The notes beneath the pieces were generated by a model. That model did no database searches. It saw nothing but the letters and a program-made list of their open reading frames with translations, and was not told where the DNA came from. Below are positions 478-8,854 of a DNA stretch of 13,007 nucleotides, piece by piece. The position numbers and the translations under genes were made by a program. Position 1 is the stretch's first letter, and each line of letters starts with the position of its first letter. Source of the DNA: Butyrivibrio sp. UBA3740 (GTDB taxonomy: Bacteria > Bacillota > Clostridia > Lachnospirales > Lachnospiraceae); contig DFGW01000118.1 in assembly GCA_002372465.1 (NCBI GenBank), positions 1 through 13,007 on the forward strand, read 5' to 3'.

Positions 478-1638
478 TTATTTCATCTTAAGTGACAATG
501 CATATTGTTCCTGAGAGACTTTAATCAGCACATTCCTTGTGTCAGGTGTCTGTCCCAGGAAGCCAAACTGTTCAGAAAAAAGAGCCACTCCAAAGCGGAG
601 CTTCCCTCCGGATCTCCTGCGTACGGATCTGTCTATCTCCATCATTATGCTCTGCATAACCTTGTCACGAAGTCCCCAGTTGCCTAAAAGCGCCAGGATC
701 TCATCCACCGTCACACATCCCATAATGGTCTTGGCCTGGACAGCTGTTCCGCCAACCATTGACACGTGAGCGGCAAAGATCTCTTTTCTTGCGTCAGCTG
801 CTGTAGAATTGGTGTTCATGATGCCTGCAGCAAGTTTGACCAGCTTACCTGCATTTCCCACCAGAAGAAGGTTCTCAACCCCCTCCTCTACTGCCTTGTC
901 TATGGCATGTCCCGGGAAGTTATAGCAAAAGATGCTGGTCTTGAGATCAACATGTATACTGTCGGCAATTATCTTGGCGCAATACCTTCCGGGGCTTACA
1001 AGAATAGACTTGATACCCTGGGCAGTCTGGGATCTGATCTGAGAATCTATGGAATCGGAAATATCTCTCATATGTACCGGAAGAACTATCCCATCGGTGC
1101 CTAGAAGCGTAATCCCACCCGAAAAAGTGCTCTGTCCCATGGCCTGTTTAGCGGCAATGAGCATCCCTTCAGGAGATTTCACGGTTATTAGCAAAAGCTG
1201 CGCACCATCAGACATCTCGCAGCAGTCTGCAACAGCATCAAACACGAGTCGCAGAGCATACTTATCAAGGGCAGCGATACCTTCTCCGTTTTGTAAAAAG
1301 AGATTTCCATATCTGATATCGATCTGAACATTATCTCTTAAGGTTCTGATATCGGAAATCCTGGACACATTCACATGAATACAGGCTTTTTCGCGGATAT
1401 CGGGAGCTGACCCTCCTTCCATGACAGTCATATACTCTGACTGGGAATCGGTGCAATTCTCCAAAACCTTTTTGACCGGATATATTCTGGATGAACCATT
1501 TGGATGGTTTATCGTTACATTTTCATAATTGATGCGAAAAATAAGATTGGCTGCAGCTGCTCTGGCAGCGGCTGCTGCGCATTCCCCCGAAGAAATATGG
1601 CTTGAAACCTGTCCTGCTACAGTAGAATACCTATCCAT
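478..1638 (-). CDS. cbiD: CbiD-like cobalt-precorrin-5B C1-methyltransferase, divergent and unlinked
   Basis: The 386-residue protein has the usual CbiD length. CbiD methylates C1 of cobalt-precorrin-5B in anaerobic cobalamin synthesis, using S-adenosylmethionine. The C-terminal half is recognisable: GGITLLGTDGIV (about 174-185), then LLLVGNAGKLVKLAAGIMNT (257-276) followed by ADARKEI. The N-terminal half has drifted. The usual YTTGTCAAAAAKAA is ISSGECAAAAARAA (15-28), and the usual GVGxVTKPGL and PAINPVPR stretches cannot be found. The usual CSNFIG reads CYNFPG (238-243). No other cobalamin gene is in the window, so it is either a remote member of a split pathway or a CbiD-fold protein with another substrate. 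The ATG at 1636-1638 has AAGGGG 6 nt upstream (1645-1650). Membership of the family is firm; the exact reaction is not. Confidence 0.82.
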   Translation of the reverse strand: MDRYSTVAGQVSSHISSGECAAAAARAAAANLIFRINYENVTINHPNGSSRIYPVKKVLENCTDSQSEYMTVMEGGSAPDIREKACIHVNVSRISDIRTLRDNVQIDIRYGNLFLQNGEGIAALDKYALRLVFDAVADCCEMSDGAQLLLITVKSPEGMLIAAKQAMGQSTFSGGITLLGTDGIVLPVHMRDISDSIDSQIRSQTAQGIKSILVSPGRYCAKIIADSIHVDLKTSIFCYNFPGHAIDKAVEEGVENLLLVGNAGKLVKLAAGIMNTNSTAADARKEIFAAHVSMVGGTAVQAKTIMGCVTVDEILALLGNWGLRDKVMQSIMMEIDRSVRRRSGGKLRFGVALFSEQFGFLGQTPDTRNVLIKVSQEQYALSLKMK

Positions 1639-1799
1639 AGTAAGCCCCTTGTAATCGAAATTTTAATTTCTTTACACTGTAAATTATATATTATTATCAC
1701 TATATCGTGTTCATATTATTTATTATTTCGAATTACTTTATTTTTTCTTTATAAATCGTCCATATTTTGTCCAAATTTAGACAGTAAGATGTATACATA

Positions 1800-1918
1800 T
1801 CAGAAGTAACAATACTTCTGACTCCCCCAACAAAACTTTTTTCATACCGGGTCGGTTGGCTCCCCACTAATCGACCCCTCCTCCCAAAATTAAGCACCTC
1901 GCTGAGGTGCTTTTTTTA
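1800..1918 (+). ncRNA. Putative small RNA, copy 1 of a C-rich twin family
   Basis: I do not recognise a named family. In + orientation the parts are: a perfect hairpin with CAGAAGTA (1801-1808) pairing with TACTTCTG (1813-1820); a 28-nt block (1821-1848) identical to 2459-2486; an 11-bp hairpin (1849-1859 with 1867-1877, two G-U pairs) with loop CTCCCCA (1860-1866); a TCCTCCCAAAA tail (1879-1889); and a terminator (1892-1917). Five of the eleven stem pairs differ from copy 2 with pairing retained. CTCCCCC, CTCCCCA and TCCTCCC are unpaired and complementary to Shine-Dalgarno sequences, as in C-rich Firmicute sRNAs such as RsaE or LhrC; that functional parallel is an inference. A TATACA box (1792-1797) sits at the same place as TATATT in copy 2, but no good -35 is visible. 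The minus-strand reading is less likely but open. Confidence 0.72.
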
Positions 1919-1920
1919 TT
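1892..1920 (+). terminator. Rho-independent terminator of sRNA copy 1
   Basis: AAGCACCTC (1892-1900) pairs with GAGGTGCTT (1904-1912) around a GCT loop, followed by seven T (1911-1917). It lies a few bases after the conserved C-rich tail, so it ends the + strand RNA. On the minus strand the stem is followed by TTAATTTT, so it may also weakly end transcripts of the small gene at 1952-2269. Confidence 0.88.
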
Positions 1921-1951
1921 GGTTGGAAATCATTCCGCCAGGAATGACCGG

Positions 1952-2269
1952 TTATGCAGGGATTGCATTATCTTCACTTTCAGAATCGGATATAGCAGCT
2001 TCTTCCGGGTCCTTGGGTATTTCTTCATTCATGATCTGGTCACCTTTCCTTGGTGCTCTGACACCAAAGCTGCCATTGTATCTAAGGTCCTTAAGGATTT
2101 TCCTGACATTCTTAAGGTCCTTGGACATATCCCCGGCGCTGGCGCAGATCACGGTAGGTACGCCACTGCTGCTCATCTCAACGCGAAGTCCGGCATCCTT
2201 AAGCGTTTTGAATGCCTTAAGCTTATCTGTTGTACTTATCTGTTCAAGATCTTTTTCATTCTTATTCAT
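1952..2269 (-). CDS. Small hypothetical protein with acidic C-terminus
   Basis: This is a 105-residue protein of unknown function. The first two thirds is a charged, probably alpha/beta segment that includes AGLRVEMSSSGVPTVICASA and a lysine-rich stretch ending LRYNGSFGVRAP. The last 25 residues or so are acidic and rich in Glu, Asp and Ser. There is no signal peptide or membrane segment. The ATG at 2267-2269 is chosen over an in-frame TTG at 2329, because a good promoter occupies 2301-2329 and would place the TTG upstream of the transcript start. The ribosome site is weak (GGAAAG, 2281-2286, 11 nt away). The gene stands alone between the two copies of the C-rich RNA element. The long + strand reading frames over the same DNA lack a ribosome site. 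It is probably real, and I infer no function. Confidence 0.62.
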   Translation of the reverse strand: MNKNEKDLEQISTTDKLKAFKTLKDAGLRVEMSSSGVPTVICASAGDMSKDLKNVRKILKDLRYNGSFGVRAPRKGDQIMNEEIPKDPEEAAISDSESEDNAIPA

Positions 2270-2300
2270 AGATATAGTGCCTTTCCATATTATTAAACAC

Positions 2301-2329
2301 AATATAGCACATTTTGAAATTAATTTCAA
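2301..2329 (-). promoter_or_regulatory. SigA-type promoter of the small acidic protein gene
   Basis: On the minus strand, TTGAAA (2324-2329) and TATATT (2301-2306) are separated by exactly 17 nt. TGC stands immediately before the -10, giving an extended -10. The predicted start is near 2294, leaving a leader of about 25 nt to the ATG at 2269. Confidence 0.7.
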
Positions 2330-2330
2330 A
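2313..2330. promoter_or_regulatory. 18-bp perfect palindrome overlapping the -35 box (candidate operator)
   Basis: TTTGAAATTAATTTCAAA is a perfect inverted repeat with no spacer. It covers the -35 hexamer (2324-2329) and part of the spacer of the promoter for the small gene at 1952-2269, a position suited to a dimeric repressor. A related imperfect form, GAAATTAAAATTTC, occurs at 1658-1671 in the leader of the cbiD-like gene. The local DNA is AT-rich, so that second match may be chance. Confidence 0.5.
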
Positions 2331-2440
2331 CGTTTGTTCCTACATTATGCACAAATATTGTACGTTATTTCGTTTATAATTTGGCTATATTTTTTATCGA
2401 ATTACTGTTAAGTATTTTCATTCCACACCGATATATTTAT

Positions 2441-2578
2441 TGAGAACAAAAAATTCTCACTCCCCCAACAAAACTTTTTTCATACCTGGGCAGTTTAACT
2501 CCCCATTAAACTGCCCTCCTCCCAAAAAACTTGTGAAAGCAACAGTAAAAAAGAAGACGTGATAGCCGTCTTCTTTTT
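2441..2578 (+). ncRNA. Putative small RNA, copy 2 of the C-rich twin family
   Basis: The architecture matches copy 1 in the same order: a 5' hairpin (TGAGAA 2441-2446 with TTCTCA 2454-2459); the identical 28-nt block (2459-2486); an 11-bp perfect hairpin (2488-2498 with 2506-2516) with the invariant loop CTCCCCA (2499-2505); and the TCCTCCCAAAA tail (2517-2527). A linker of about 20 nt then leads to a strong terminator (2551-2580). The 5' hairpin, main stem and terminator sequences differ from copy 1 while their structures persist, which is the signature of selection on RNA structure. The candidate -10 is TATATT (2432-2437), with no convincing -35. Coordinates assume a start just after that box. 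No + strand gene lies downstream, so it is unlikely to be a riboswitch or leader for a + strand gene. Confidence 0.74.
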
Positions 2579-2580
2579 TT
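2547..2580. terminator. Bidirectional Rho-independent terminator
   Basis: AAGAAGACG (2551-2559) pairs with CGTCTTCTT (2567-2575) around a 7-nt loop. A T run on the + side and an A run on the left (T run on the minus strand) make it work in both directions. It ends sRNA copy 2 on + and the three-gene peptidase operon on -, whose last stop codon is at 2602. Confidence 0.9.
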
Positions 2581-2601: not shown

Positions 2602-4416
2602 TTATCTGTTGTTGGTATAAGCCTTTACGAAGAAATCCTTATCATCCTGACGGATCATGGACTCCCCGTCATCAGAGATATAGTAGCTGCATCCGCTGGC
2701 CTTGTAACTGTTGTGCACATTCCCCGTAAGATTCTGCCACTCGTCAAAGTTGGCATCTCCCGTCATGTCCTCCTGGGGCTCGAATACCAGTCGTCCTGAA
2801 GTCGCAGGCTTTATCAGCACAAAGAAGGAGTCGCCCTTATCAAGACTTATGGGCTCTTCCAGTTCGAAGGTGTGATAGCCACCGCTAATAGCTGAAACCT
2901 TCTGAGTAAGAGCAGGAAGGTCTTTTTCAAAAGAAATATCTCCCTCCCCATCTGAAGGATTCACATAAATATCAATCTCATACTGCTGATAGAGATCAAG
3001 ATTCATAAGTCCCACGGCCCTAAGCTCTTCAGAGCCTTGCGCTTCATAAAGCATTCCAAAAGGATTGGTGGAACCTGAAAGAGCAGAAACCATGTTTTTG
3101 TCATCATCCAGGGTGCTGACTAAAGTAGTGAAAAATCCTGCAGCCTGGTAGTTATTGTCATACCACTTATCCTCGCCCTCAAGCACCACATCATAAGCTG
3201 TGGCATTACTGATGGCTGTGGTCTCATCATAGTAGGAAAGATAGAAGCACCCGTCCTGACCTGAGCCTGTACCCCAGCTGTTTCTGCAAAGCCACGCTCC
3301 GTCTCCCTCCGGCTGATAGCGGAAATTGGTGGCGCTGTAGTTGTCATCCCATCCTATGATAAGGACTTCATGATCTGCTGTCTTGGCAGGATTCCCATTA
3401 AAGGTGGAGTAAAGATTACTGCTGTGATCCTTGAAGTATTCTCCGGCAGCACATACGCCCACTGTTGCTGCACCATGCTCCATGACCATCTGCTTGATCA
3501 TCAGATTATTATTTATGTTCCCGGGCATCTCGTAGGTGCCCTGAACATGGTAGTCGCAGGTAAACGCCCCAGAGGGCTTAGCATTATTATCTGTAAAGAC
3601 ATTTGTACTGCCGTACAGACTTGCAAAGGAATCATCTCCTGCATCCTTGACAGGGCCCTTCCAGGCCGTCAGAAGGCTTATGCAGTAGTCATTGACCCCA
3701 CCACTGGTAATATAGCCGGTATCATAGTCAAAGATCCAGTCATTGCTGTTTCCGTCAGCATTAACAAGCTCTCTGTAATCGTCATCAATAAGTCCGCCCA
3801 GGGATCCTTCTGCCTTATGCAGGTTGTAGTAGGCCAGGTGCTTCTCGGACAGGTCAACATCAGTACTCTTTATTTCATCGTGATGTGAAAGAATGTCACT
3901 CTCGATGGCGCCCATACAGGCATAGGTCCAGCAAAGATATGAATACCCCTGGTCCTTTACCGGTGTTACAAAGCTCTTTCCATCCACATTTCTGGAGTCA
4001 TACTTCTCCGGAATGTCATCAGCGGAAAAAGACGCAATATCTACAGGAACAACGTCCTTATAGTCCTCATTGCTATAAAAAGCCCCGGCATCCCCGTCTC
4101 CCATGGTAACAGCCTCGGGAATGAGCACCGTCCTTACCACCTGCACATCCTCAGTTACAGGGGAGTTAAAGTTATCCTGGATGATACTGTCCTGAAGGAC
4201 ATTTTCAGGATTTTTACTTGCAGCTTCTACGGCTTCCACTCCGGGGCCTTCAACTCCGGCACCATCCACCATAGAAAGGTCCGCATCGGAAACCTGTCCG
4301 GTATCATCCCTGCGGGACGCATTCGTGTCATCAGGTGCCTTGGCTTTTCCGCAACCGGATAAAGAAACTGTTAAGATCGGAATCATAAATGCTGCGATAC
4401 CAATGTTTTTCTTCAT
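2602..4416 (-). CDS. Papain-family (C1) cysteine peptidase, secreted lipoprotein
   Basis: This 604-residue protein has a lipoprotein signal with lipobox LSGC (modified Cys22), so it should be anchored outside the membrane. An acidic linker of about 110 residues follows. The C1A peptidase domain (about 135-410) carries a full set of catalytic residues: oxyanion Gln156 in VKDQG, nucleophile Cys162 in LCWTYA, His349 in DHEVLIIGWDD and Asn379 in RNSWG. The family's usual GxCGSCW is YSYLCW here. The C-terminal part (about 420-600) is beta-rich, with a GYHTFELEEPISLDKGDSFF segment like the accessory domain seen in clostridial C1 peptidases. The ATG at 4416 is preferred to the adjacent TTG, because AAAGGGG (4424-4430) lies 7 nt upstream. 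It is the last gene of the operon, 12 nt after the C39-like gene. The substrate is unknown. Confidence 0.9.
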   Translation of the reverse strand: MKKNIGIAAFMIPILTVSLSGCGKAKAPDDTNASRRDDTGQVSDADLSMVDGAGVEGPGVEAVEAASKNPENVLQDSIIQDNFNSPVTEDVQVVRTVLIPEAVTMGDGDAGAFYSNEDYKDVVPVDIASFSADDIPEKYDSRNVDGKSFVTPVKDQGYSYLCWTYACMGAIESDILSHHDEIKSTDVDLSEKHLAYYNLHKAEGSLGGLIDDDYRELVNADGNSNDWIFDYDTGYITSGGVNDYCISLLTAWKGPVKDAGDDSFASLYGSTNVFTDNNAKPSGAFTCDYHVQGTYEMPGNINNNLMIKQMVMEHGAATVGVCAAGEYFKDHSSNLYSTFNGNPAKTADHEVLIIGWDDNYSATNFRYQPEGDGAWLCRNSWGTGSGQDGCFYLSYYDETTAISNATAYDVVLEGEDKWYDNNYQAAGFFTTLVSTLDDDKNMVSALSGSTNPFGMLYEAQGSEELRAVGLMNLDLYQQYEIDIYVNPSDGEGDISFEKDLPALTQKVSAISGGYHTFELEEPISLDKGDSFFVLIKPATSGRLVFEPQEDMTGDANFDEWQNLTGNVHNSYKASGCSYYISDDGESMIRQDDKDFFVKAYTNNR

Positions 4417-4423
4417 CAATTAA

Positions 4424-5066: not shown

Positions 5067-6686
5067 TCAGTCGCTTGTATTTTCATAAATTGTATCCGCT
5101 ACCAGGTAGTATTCCTTTTCGTCCTGCCCCCTGAACTTGATGCTCTTGGGAATATCAAAGGAATACTGGAAATAGTTCACACCCTCAAGGACAAGCTCCG
5201 CCGTTCCCATCTGGGTTCCCACACGATACAAATTACCATCACATATATAATAACACTTTCCGTCGTACTGATTCCATCTCATGTCGCTGACATAGGAGCT
5301 TAAGTCTGCCACCTGAACGGGGTTTCCTTCATTCTTCGAATAAATAATATGCTTTCCCCGGTTATCCGCGATCCACATCTCCGATAAATCCTCATTACCA
5401 GTAAAGTTTCCCATGGAAGCCACTGTTATGGGAGTGGAATACTGCTTAATTTCCTTGCCGTCATAGACGAGTTTTTCCAGTTTCCCCTCGTCATAATTCT
5501 TGTAATATACGGTTGGTCCGCCCTCCATGATATAGAAGGTATCTGTATTGCGTTTTTTCTCGATCCTCACCATCTGTGGGTCATCGCCATAAAGACAGTA
5601 AACTGCATTGTTCTCCGAGAGCATCAGCGAGTTGGCAAAGCAGTCCGAATCGATCATGTAATAATCGCTATATCTGCCTAAAGCTTTAATGTCTGCATTA
5701 CAGACCTTGAAATTCAACCTGTCATTATCAAAGAGTTTCCTGGGTTTCTTCTCTCCTGCCCTGTAATACCAAGTCTTGTCATTAAACTCATAAATCAGCT
5801 GCTTGCAGTCTCTGGTCACATAGGTGTCAAAGACGTATCCGCCCTTTGTTGCCAGCCTGGTCTCACCTTCGGAGGTATGGCAAAAGAACCTTCCATCATC
5901 CGCATAACAGCTGTACATAACTGTGCTTGCGTCATCAGCTACAGCCACAGGAGTGATAGATTTCCTGGCTATTGTATCCAAAACGTTACCATCTATATCA
6001 GAAATATAGGTTCCCATATTGTTCGGATCGCTGGAGGAAAATGCTATCAGTTTACCATTGGGGGACATCCCCACATTGTCTTCGTAAACATCCTCAGCAA
6101 ACATCCTGGACTCCCCGGACACCGCATCATAAACATAAAGATTACGATGGTAGCCTTTCTCCTTAGCAATAAAGTAGCCATATCCGCCGTCAAAACACAT
6201 ATCCGCGTAAGTAACGTTGTCATAAATCTTGGTCAGTTCCAGATCTCCACTGACATAGTAAAGAACCTGGTCATCCGTCAGCACGAACCCTTCTGTATGA
6301 CCAGCATTGGGCCTGAAGTTGAGAGTATATTCAGTAACATCCTTAAAGTCATCAAGTATCTTACCATCAGTATTGTAAAGACACTTCGATGATAGAAAAA
6401 TCTGAGGTTCCTGATTATTTCTTTTCTCCTGAACACTGTATTCAAAGGTCGGAACAGCCTCTTTTTCCTCTTCTTTACCAAAGTCGAATTCGATCTTTGG
6501 AGCTTCTATCCCCCACTTGTCTTTGGCTGTCTTTTTGGCTTCATCTGCCACCTGTGTAAACTTCTGATCTATCTGCGAATTCCTGGTGGCGAATTTATAA
6601 CCTCCAAACAGTGAAGCGGTGATGATCCCTGCCATTCCCACTATCACTAAAAATGCATTTGCTGATGAGTTGTTACTGCTTTTCAT
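5067..6686 (-). CDS. Membrane-anchored extracytoplasmic beta-propeller protein (TolB/DPP-IV-like)
   Basis: This is a 539-residue protein with one N-terminal membrane segment (about residues 11-30, AFLVIVGMAGIITASLFGGY). A charged linker with the acidic run GKEEEKEA follows, then about 440 residues of short repeated beta-strand units. These include SPNGKLIAFSSSD, typical of WD/TolB-like propeller blades, together with many Tyr-rich strands. No hydrolase catalytic motif is visible after the propeller, so it looks like a sensor, scaffold or ligand-binding protein outside the cell, not a peptidase. It is the first gene of the operon with the two cysteine-peptidase-like genes. The ATG at 6684-6686 has AAGGAA (6695-6700) 8 nt upstream. 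I do not recognise a named family; the propeller call rests on repeat pattern only. Confidence 0.72.
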   Translation of the reverse strand: MKSSNNSSANAFLVIVGMAGIITASLFGGYKFATRNSQIDQKFTQVADEAKKTAKDKWGIEAPKIEFDFGKEEEKEAVPTFEYSVQEKRNNQEPQIFLSSKCLYNTDGKILDDFKDVTEYTLNFRPNAGHTEGFVLTDDQVLYYVSGDLELTKIYDNVTYADMCFDGGYGYFIAKEKGYHRNLYVYDAVSGESRMFAEDVYEDNVGMSPNGKLIAFSSSDPNNMGTYISDIDGNVLDTIARKSITPVAVADDASTVMYSCYADDGRFFCHTSEGETRLATKGGYVFDTYVTRDCKQLIYEFNDKTWYYRAGEKKPRKLFDNDRLNFKVCNADIKALGRYSDYYMIDSDCFANSLMLSENNAVYCLYGDDPQMVRIEKKRNTDTFYIMEGGPTVYYKNYDEGKLEKLVYDGKEIKQYSTPITVASMGNFTGNEDLSEMWIADNRGKHIIYSKNEGNPVQVADLSSYVSDMRWNQYDGKCYYICDGNLYRVGTQMGTAELVLEGVNYFQYSFDIPKSIKFRGQDEKEYYLVADTIYENTSD

Positions 6687-6814: not shown

Positions 6815-8854
6815 ATGGAAAAAACAGGGAAACAGCGGAGAAAACTTCATAATGAACAGAGCACTTTACGTGTCAGTGACGCATCAGCGATTCTGGGAAT
6901 ATCCCAGGCCACTGTCAGGAACTGGGCAAAACTCGGTAAGCTGAACGTTTTTTCTGCCTCTCCCCTTCTCTTTTTGGAAAAAGACGTCTACGCCCTCCAC
7001 AAGGAACTGGAGTCTTCAGGGCTTCTTCGGAGCCGTCGCAATAAGACCAGGCTAACAGGAAATCTCATCCCCAAGACCTACATCGATAGCGCCTCTCCCA
7101 ACTACATTCCGGTAAAAGAACTTTTGGAGGCTCTGACAGATACTGACTGTTCCGGGCAAAGTCTCCTGCCATCGGTGATCCGTACTGTAGCAAAAGAGCT
7201 GCTATCCCTTAGGGGGACTCCAAAAGAAATCTCTCTTAAACTCCTTGATCAGACACCCTTCAAAGCACCTTCAAAGGAAAAAGGTACCGAACTAAACAGC
7301 CGTTTTTCTCCCTCCTTTATCCCCGGAGAAGATCTTTTGGGAATGCTTTATCTTTCCCTCAGAAGCCTTCGCGCCAAGAAAAATACCGGTGCATACTACA
7401 CGCCTTATTTCGTGGTGGACAGGCTGGTTTCAGGGATTCCGGACCTTCCTTTGCAAAGATGCTGCGATCCTGCCTGTGGAACAGGGAACTTTCTTATAAG
7501 ACTTCCTGATAACCTTCCACTGGAATGTATCTATGGCTATGACATCGACGAGACTGCCATTGCCATAGCCAGAATCAATGTAGCCCTTAAGTACAACATC
7601 CAAAGTCAAAGGGAGCTTGATACGATCTTTACTAATATCCGGTGCAGTGACTTTCTTGGTATTAGCGCTGCTCTTTCCACTCCTGAAAATAGCGGCAACA
7701 CGCCCTCATTCAGCGTGATTCTCGGGAATCCCCCCTGGGGCTATGTATTTTCCAAAGATGAAATCAGTCGCATCAATGAAAGCTTTGTCTCCTATGACGG
7801 GAATAAAACCCCTGAATCCTTTTCCCTTTTTGTAGAGAAGGGTCTGGAAAAGCTTAAAGAAGGCGGCACTTTGTCATTCCTTCTTCCTGAGACAATACTT
7901 GGCACTGACATTCACAAAAGAATCCGTAGTCTTATCCTTAAGGAAGCAGCAGTAACCTCAATTATTTACCTGGGTGATGTTTTCGACAAAGTACAATGTC
8001 CCAGTGTGATCCTCACCTTAAGCCATCCCACAGCTGATCACAGCCAGCCACTGCATCATAATGTCACAGGGGGTGGCAGCCAGATGCAAGGCTACCGCCT
8101 GGCAAATACGATTTCGGTATCCTATGAGAATCACCGCCAGATACCGCCCAAAGTTCATAACCGCTTCCAGACTGATGGCAGTCGCATCAGTCCCGAAAGC
8201 TTTCACATCCTATGTAACGATACAGAATATGCATTGCTTCAGAAAATAGGCTCTGTCCCCCACTTTACCCTGCAAGGTAATGCAGACTTTGCCCTGGGAA
8301 TTGTAACCGGAGCAAATCGCACTCTTCTTAAGGATGTTAAAGATATTCCCAATGCTTCCGAAAAAACAGGTGCCGGAAACCAAGGTCTTGAGCCCATCCT
8401 AAAAGGAAAGGATATAGAGAAATTCCTCATCAGAAAAGCCACCAGCTTTGTGCATTTTGATCCCGACTCCTTCCAGCAATGTGCTCCGACGGAAATGTAC
8501 AGAGCAAAGGAAAAGCTCTTTTACCGATTCATCGCTGAAGAACCGGTGGTTGCCCTGGACAGGAACGGGAGTTTATCCCTCAACAGTGCCAACATAATTA
8601 TTCCCCACGTGGAAGGCTATTCTGCGACTTACATAATGGCGCTTTTAAACTCACAGGTTTTAAGCTTCTATTACCAAAACACCTTCAGGAGTATGAAGGT
8701 ACTTCGCTCCTATCTGGAAGCACTGCCTCTGGCAAAATGCTCTCCTTCCGTGCAGTCTGAAATTGAGAATTGCCCGCCCGGAGAAAAACTTGATAAAATG
8801 ATTGCAGCCCTGTATGGTATTAATGCAGCTGAATATAAGATAATTACTTCATAA
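6815..8854 (+). CDS. Eco57I/TaqI-like adenine-N6 DNA methyltransferase with N-terminal helix-turn-helix
   Basis: This 679-residue protein is predicted to methylate adenine in a specific DNA sequence. Residues 18-43 form a MerR/excisionase-type helix-turn-helix (LRVSDASAILGISQATVRNW). The methyltransferase core has GAYYTPYFVVDRLV (192-205), SAM-binding motif I DPACGTGNF (218-226), GYDID (241-245) and catalytic motif IV NPPWGY (305-310). The C-terminal 250 residues resemble a TaqI-type specificity domain, with ILKGKDIEKFLIR. I see no PD-(D/E)xK nuclease motif and no restriction or specificity gene beside it, so it looks like a stand-alone methyltransferase. The HTH could aid DNA recognition or autoregulation; that is inference. 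The ATG at 6815 has AGGA (6801-6804) 10 nt upstream. It is divergent from the propeller operon, with 128 nt between the starts. Confidence 0.88.
   Translation: MEKTGKQRRKLHNEQSTLRVSDASAILGISQATVRNWAKLGKLNVFSASPLLFLEKDVYALHKELESSGLLRSRRNKTRLTGNLIPKTYIDSASPNYIPVKELLEALTDTDCSGQSLLPSVIRTVAKELLSLRGTPKEISLKLLDQTPFKAPSKEKGTELNSRFSPSFIPGEDLLGMLYLSLRSLRAKKNTGAYYTPYFVVDRLVSGIPDLPLQRCCDPACGTGNFLIRLPDNLPLECIYGYDIDETAIAIARINVALKYNIQSQRELDTIFTNIRCSDFLGISAALSTPENSGNTPSFSVILGNPPWGYVFSKDEISRINESFVSYDGNKTPESFSLFVEKGLEKLKEGGTLSFLLPETILGTDIHKRIRSLILKEAAVTSIIYLGDVFDKVQCPSVILTLSHPTADHSQPLHHNVTGGGSQMQGYRLANTISVSYENHRQIPPKVHNRFQTDGSRISPESFHILCNDTEYALLQKIGSVPHFTLQGNADFALGIVTGANRTLLKDVKDIPNASEKTGAGNQGLEPILKGKDIEKFLIRKATSFVHFDPDSFQQCAPTEMYRAKEKLFYRFIAEEPVVALDRNGSLSLNSANIIIPHVEGYSATYIMALLNSQVLSFYYQNTFRSMKVLRSYLEALPLAKCSPSVQSEIENCPPGEKLDKMIAALYGINAAEYKIITS

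Follow-up and report, generated by a model that had tools for sequence, protein, structure and literature searches.

Two similar elements lie on the plus strand of a 13,007-nucleotide stretch of the Butyrivibrio sp. UBA3740 genome (the window, by which we mean the whole stretch of DNA that was analysed), one on either side of a small gene. This arrangement raises the question of what the twins are and what they might do. Our analysis supports the prediction that they are sibling members of a multicopy family of small RNAs (sRNAs), and the motifs carried by the family suggest that the sibling RNAs probably cover the translation start on sets of mRNAs, some of them for secreted proteins, and so silence the genes concerned.

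An earlier, sequence-only reading of this DNA had described two elements sharing a block, a loop and a tail in the same order, about 640 nt apart. The 28-nt block ACTCCCCCAACAAAACTTTTTTCATACC is indeed identical in both copies (1821-1848 and 2459-2486), as is the 7-nt hairpin loop CTCCCCA, and block, loop and tail follow in the same order at a register offset of 638 nt. The shared tail had been given as 11 nt; it is identical, as claimed, and measures 14 nt (CCCTCCTCCCAAAA, 1876-1889 and 2514-2527). The hairpin arms and terminators vary between the copies while the architecture is kept, and both elements are on the plus strand, flanked by minus-strand genes. Copy A spans approximately 1800-1919 (about 120 nt) and copy B 2441-2580 (about 140 nt). 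Read from the sequence, the parts of each element are arranged as a promoter-like region, a 5' hairpin, the unpaired ACUUUUUUCAUAC, a covarying central hairpin, the unpaired CUCCUCCC and a terminator. Both copies fold more stably than their shuffled counterparts, with z-scores of -8.3 for A (120 nt) and -6.0 for B (140 nt) and none of 200 shuffles as stable for either copy.

In copy A, the -35 region holds an 11-bp direct repeat, GTCCATATTTT-GTCCAAATTTA (1758-1779), a likely response-regulator operator that recurs in similar form, with substitutions, in the 22 A-type copies compared. It is followed by a weak -10-like element, TGTATA (1790-1795), and, by folding, by a 5' hairpin (1800-1821) and a single-stranded segment (1822-1848) that is part of the 28-nt block. 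Within this segment lies the putative anti-start element ACUUUUUUCAUAC (1835-1847), which is antisense to GUAUGAAAAAAGU, pairs at register -2 of start codons and is kept in distant siblings. An 11-bp central hairpin with the loop CUCCCCA (1849-1877), for which covariation is the evidence, a putative anti-Shine-Dalgarno (anti-SD) element, CUCCUCCC (1878-1885), and an intrinsic terminator identified by terminator scan and folding (1892-1917) complete the element. Copy B has a promoter-like region (2407-2437) with GTTAAG at 2407-2412 and TATATT at 2432-2437; across the 12 B-type promoters compared, CGATATA is found in 12/12 and TTAAG in 10/12. Its 5' hairpin (2441-2459, by folding), single-stranded segment (2460-2486), anti-start element (2473-2485) and central hairpin (2488-2516, by folding, again with the loop CUCCCCA) lead into an anti-SD element whose first C is common to the stem (2516-2523), and folding places a terminator hairpin and U-run at 2547-2580. 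The sequence-only reading had given each copy its own 5' hairpin, which both have, and its own TATA-type box, which holds for the TATATT of copy B, the site in copy A being weak; a promoter scan of the window listed no promoter for either copy. It had also placed a terminator directly after each element, as is the case for copy A; that of copy B begins approximately 19 nt past the tail, and its arms are near-symmetric, with a simple terminator scan calling the minus strand only.

The genes around the twins are themselves conserved. On the 5' side of copy A is a cbiD-like gene (478-1638, minus strand; PF01888, 1.4e-37, under the NCBIfam cbiD cut-off). Between the twins is an orphan gene (1952-2269, minus strand), a conserved neighbour whose 105-aa product has no Pfam or NCBIfam match, and a C1 peptidase gene follows at 2602-4419 on the minus strand. 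Across the best-hit loci (L035-L063, of 1.6-3.1 kb each, some of which end before these genes), the neighbourhood of copy A includes cbiD in 21/29, the orphan gene in 17/29 (55-77% identity) and the C1 peptidase in 17/29. Further along the window are a gene for a 539-aa protein (5067-6686, minus strand), which has no Pfam match and a weak TolB-propeller NCBIfam match far under the cut-off, and one for an Eco57I/TaqI-type N6-adenine methylase (6815-8854, plus strand) with an N-terminal helix-turn-helix motif under the Pfam cut-off. A reading of the twins as a mobile repeat is ruled out by the conserved gene neighbourhood together with covariation.

That covariation is extensive. In alignment A2, which comprises 31 sequences without the B-type copies (their register is shifted by one), 95.6% of cells were paired vs 86.9% in shuffles, 12/19 pairs had changed on both sides (10/11 in the central helix), and the covariation score was reached by 0/500 shuffles. 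RNAalifold, unprompted, returned the same two helices (17 pairs). The sequence-only reading had held that homologs occurring as repeats lacking conserved structure would speak against an sRNA, a case contradicted by these compensatory changes across the genus.

The twins belong to a larger set. Their own genome carries a third copy beside a GGDEF/EAL-type gene (read by eye), ended by the contig end, and a diverged fourth sibling, L130; several siblings per genome, at unlinked places, are found. A DNA search of 61 genomes detected copies in 35/37 of the genus and 0/24 from other families of the order, and 66 non-identical copies were extracted by a motif pattern that misses motif-less or shortened copies. 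The sequence-only reading had proposed a covariance model search of Lachnospiraceae-type genomes, and this search extended the family well beyond the window genome. The first model, R1, had matches in 12/299 family genomes and in 11/246 order genomes, of which 8 belong to the own genus. Two R1 matches were false by reading (L120, the antisense of a tRNA-like stretch, and L139, coding-like), and the call on L122 was left undecided after reading. The remaining distant R1 members have ACUUUUU(U)CAUA, in some cases slightly altered, with a differing hairpin and mostly CCUCC(C); overall, distant relatives retain mainly ACUUUUUUCAUA, a hairpin whose sequence has changed, and CCUCC(C) in this or a variant form. 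Degenerate anti-SDs occur in L151, L352, L357 and L367, and L116 and L352 are relatives without the C-rich loop. Among the matches listed, sibling-type loci were recognized by eye in Clostridium sp. 12(A), Butyrivibrio sp. RUI266 and RUI079, an Acetatifactor, a Lachnospira, Lachnoclostridium sp. UBA5725 and Hominisplanchenecus faecis, all of which we take to belong to the Lachnospiraceae. At the RUI079 locus (L271), a 543-bp stretch has a 77% match in the L130 neighbourhood. Three diverged siblings (L153, L154 and G410:C11:222613) lie within approximately 43 kb of one contig, which suggests local expansion. Pattern scans that took no account of structure gave at least 134 distinct hits, the best 45 by folding being considered, and loci were kept by eye if a hairpin lay between the motifs; the hits that were read mostly fell in coding sequence or ran antisense to the starts of ordinary genes. 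A Streptococcus match, L202, was by reading not a csRNA-like locus.

A second covariance model, R2, built from 21 sequences (at least 2 A-type rows being misaligned by one), had matches in 66/299 family genomes, or 65/298 genera, at a cut-off for which approximately 3 chance matches are expected per 300 genomes if the rough E-values hold. A draw across the phylum, which also contained unmatched family genomes (at least G240 and G320), gave matches in 3/299 genomes, of which two are in the own genus and one (1/297) lies outside it. This single match outside the family, L423, looks coding and is apparently due to chance. Of the 34 R2 loci, the 24 not plainly seen before were read by eye: 23 family loci were sibling-like, two of which (L398 and L401) were already known from R1, and L423 was not. 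The idea of a duplicated trans-acting sRNA, put forward in the sequence-only reading, thus gains support from the promoter region, the covarying structure, the terminators and the unlinked siblings.

R1, R2 and the DNA patterns all favour members that keep the motifs, a bias that the operator search alone avoids. Many distant members carry tandem 11-bp repeats (TTCACA-like) just 5' of the -10, and these operators are, we presume, of the OmpR/PhoB kind. Searching five genomes with the repeats alone, by a pattern chosen on members found in them (the choice did not depend on the RNA sequence but did depend on these genomes), gave 18 sites in four genomes, with 0 for a control pattern; the fifth genome, G063, has a sibling (L124) and no site by the repeat pattern. 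A sibling lies downstream of 16/18 sites, 7/18 being already known from R1. At the 11 sites not known before, a sibling is present at 9 and absent at L362 and L365, and the strict anti-start motif occurs at 7/11 of these sites vs 15/1961 background 150-nt windows of the same 18 loci. Of all parts of the operator-found members, the anti-start block is kept best. Across the 16 operator-found siblings, the hairpin was 96.9% paired, with 6/10 pairs changed on both sides and a score reached by 0/500 shuffles; its pair-type count was not above that of shuffles (374/500). In the upstream regions of 24 R2 loci, which lie outside the model, self-match peaked at lags 11 (0.361) and 22 (0.352) over a shuffled baseline of 0.298 (sd 0.009), all 24 loci, L423 too, being included. 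Less productive were a regular expression for the A/C operator, too strict at 0 matches in the G018 sample with known copies missed as well, and an operator PWM, set aside after catching merely 9 promoters.

PhoP boxes are TTNACA repeats. Neither these nor the WalR consensus box (TGTWAH-N5-TGTWAH, as given in the accessible part of PMC9210968) are present as written in the window promoters; the distant siblings have TTCACA repeats at 11-bp spacing. The own genome has five OmpR-type response regulator matches, upstream of which no operator of the sibling type was seen by eye. As a separate observation, an OmpR-type regulator gene of the own genome (L370, on C211) has CTTAAGAAAT-like tandem repeats within approximately 100 nt upstream, as if autoregulated; a link between these repeats and the GTTAAG of the copy B promoter would be speculation. 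A further response regulator (L371, C222:9621-9839, plus strand), with the recognition helix VVWVYISNLRKKL, is followed by a long histidine-kinase-like ORF, and by eye its helix resembles that shown for CiaR in the available portion of PMC3091779.

We then asked what the unpaired motifs match. Among 645 crude ORFs called in an 800-kb portion of a sister genome, 563 have an ATG, and 12.3% of these pair with the anti-start core through at least 9 contiguous pairs at register -2, compared with 0.2% elsewhere; 0/300 shuffles were as high. Internal ATGs had an anti-start match in 5.7% of cases vs the 12.3% at starts, and some of the agreement with start regions is inherent, as AUG and the SD are common to starts. 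The anti-SD tail CCUCCUCCC peaked within -14 to -6, at 2.3% for position -14 (5/300 shuffles), on its own a weak signal, and the 69 anti-start genes had longer anti-SD runs than the others (5.19 vs 4.75, p 0.0034). Neither the conserved 5' CUCCCCCAAC nor the C-rich loop showed a preference for start regions in the sister genome (129 and 204 of 300 shuffles, respectively), and C-runs as the main start-region seed were dropped since they are not enriched at starts. In a replicate with 333 ATG genes from 400 kb of a distant genus, the anti-starts of three siblings again peaked at register -2 (11.1, 11.1 and 6.9%, levels reached by 1, 0 and 3 of 200 shuffles), with internal ATGs at 6.4, 7.8 and 5.2%; the anti-SD tail variants were not significant there (38 and 24 of 200 shuffles). 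Judged from sequence, the conserved motifs of distant members are antisense to AUG-AAA-AAA gene starts and to the SD. Several siblings of L350-L367 read CCUCCC-UUUU(U)AU-GGG, in which the anti-SD could pair with the downstream GGG; here, unlike in the window copies, it may form a short terminator-like hairpin.

When RNA and start region were co-folded, both contacts formed at 139/563 start regions and at 13/531 internal ATGs, and the central hairpin, free to open, was kept in 139/139. Twelve shuffles of the unpaired parts gave 0-72/563 (mean approximately 18), the highest being 72, 50 and 38. At 139/563, the predicted targets outnumber what a real regulon would hold, which leaves specificity unexplained by the model. 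Hydrophobic N-termini were predicted, by a crude hydropathy test, for 31/69 anti-start genes vs 121/494 others (odds ratio 2.5, p 0.0007), and several anti-start genes begin MKKK...ACG, lipoprotein-like. This link to hydrophobic N-termini is expected for any RNA antisense to AUG-AAR-AAR and speaks to would-be targets, not to actual targeting.

Taken together, we consider it likely, from sequence and modelling, that the twins are regulator-controlled sibling trans-acting sRNAs that block translation initiation, on mRNAs for signal-peptide and lipoprotein-like proteins among others. We infer that an OmpR/PhoB-type response regulator would turn the sibling RNA genes on, and that each RNA would pair with a target mRNA at two places simultaneously. 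ACUUUUUUCAUAC would cover the start codon and first codons (AUGAAAAAA) and CUCCUCCC the SD, with the central hairpin staying as a junction bulge opposite the short SD-AUG spacer. Such a bipartite duplex would stop 30S binding and repress mRNAs beginning AUG-AAR-AAR, a set in which hydrophobic, signal-like N-termini are over-represented, with several of lipoprotein type among them. The effects of the several siblings in a genome would add up. The bipartite model gives no role to the conserved 5' CUCCCCCAAC and C-rich loop.

Those C-rich parts are the starting point of the foremost alternative, that the RNAs seed solely on the SD through UCCC motifs in the 5' segment, loop and tail, as LhrC and RsaE do, with U6CAUA serving elsewhere, for example in chaperone binding. 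Each RNA does have three UCCC-type motifs, the C-runs of the loop and 5' segment are conserved in the genus, and LhrC employs three redundant CU-rich sites (PMC4132741, in the part available). We nevertheless judge this unlikely: it is the anti-start block that operator-found members keep best, the anti-start falls precisely on register -2 relative to start codons in two genomes, the loop and 5' C-run are without start-region preference, and L116 and L352 lack the C-rich loop altogether. Very unlikely, in our estimate, is a role as a protein-binding or sponge RNA, with siblings titrating another RNA or a protein that binds RNA, and with any likeness to start regions being secondary; a multicopy, highly structured RNA whose conserved unpaired 5' CUCCCCCAAC and C-rich loop have no pairing role would suit such a role, and the cross-genus elements complement AUG-AAA-AAA and, less strictly, the SD in start-region geometry, which argues against it. 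That the elements are a cis-acting leader, a small ORF or a sequence repeat without RNA function is scarcely credible: a 54-aa minus-strand ORF (1733-1897) does overlap copy A, and each of the two terminators is overlapped by a plus-strand ORF (129 aa, from 1907, and 56 aa, from 2559), but the core of either element is without a plus-strand ORF of at least 50 aa, the adjoining genes are on the opposite strand, each copy has its own terminator, the helices covary, and siblings lie at unlinked loci.

If sibling RNAs block starts as the bipartite model proposes, they may form a circuit. We see the case as evenly balanced for a family-wide, Lachnospiraceae-type circuit in which a response regulator has a regulon almost only of split start-region-mimic RNAs (anti-SD, bulged hairpin, anti-AUGAAAAAA), such that a single signal would reduce translation across the entire Met-Lys-Lys class of mRNAs, a counterpart of CiaRH and its csRNAs that arose or diverged separately. 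Were this true, much of the secretome and many lipoproteins would be translated less on one signal; the predicted targets suggest a possible joint tuning of export and nutrient-binding lipoproteins. A readable target code (SD and AUG-AAA-AAA) in a widespread multicopy family makes targets directly testable, and the covariance model and operator can be used to annotate further members.

How does this family relate to known ones? The sequence-only reading had recognized no named family, and an Rfam search of the window likewise gave 0 matches at gathering. Below that cut-off there were non-credible matches only, that with the lowest E-value being Chlorobi-1 RNA (17.2 bits, E 0.086, gathering 50 bits), rejected and on the opposite strand of copy B. 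Rfam 15 returned nothing for 19 sibling loci except 2 unrelated tRNAs. A literature search, its coverage thin for subscription journals and preprints, found no description of the window sRNA family, nor any base-pairing sRNA family of this kind among sRNAs of this gut and rumen bacterial family. LhrC of Listeria is multicopy, with CU-rich motifs in a loop, an unpaired stretch and the terminator, and pairs over the SD upstream of the start codon (PMC4132741, available part). The window family shares its redundant CU-rich sites and multiple copies. It differs from LhrC, RsaE and the UCCC sRNAs in having an anti-start element, none being described for LhrC in the accessible part of that paper, and the window and 19 sibling loci have no Rfam match to LhrC, RsaE or any other UCCC sRNA family.

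By analogy of design, the csRNAs are the nearest known system in working. As described in the portions of PMC3091779 and PMC4507080 at hand, the streptococcal csRNAs of the CiaRH regulon are 87-151 nt long in S. pneumoniae, are encoded at several loci under response-regulator control and have unpaired regions that contain anti-SD and anti-AUG sequences; many also possess a 5' stem-loop and a terminator. The siblings share with them a location at several loci, a putative response-regulator promoter, and anti-SD and anti-start elements unpaired between stem-loops, a feature of csRNA membership. Membership fails for the window copies on the CiaR box and the nonamer. The box, NTTAAG-N5-TTTAAG, is absent upstream of both, with near matches at L130 and L271 only among five siblings scanned; that of L130, TTTAAG-N5-TTTTAG-N10-TATTAT, is near a CiaR promoter. 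The nonamer [A/C]UCCUAAA[A/C] is replaced in the window copies by CUCCCAAAA, with one mismatch, and a few csRNAs also lack it (PMC3091779, accessible part). Unlike in csRNAs, the two elements of the window family are separated by an extra covarying hairpin, the anti-start extends into U5-U7 (AUG-AAA-AAA), and the hosts are not streptococci. Start-blocking sibling sRNAs are as a kind already known; what appears to be new is the family itself, along with its split design and host range.
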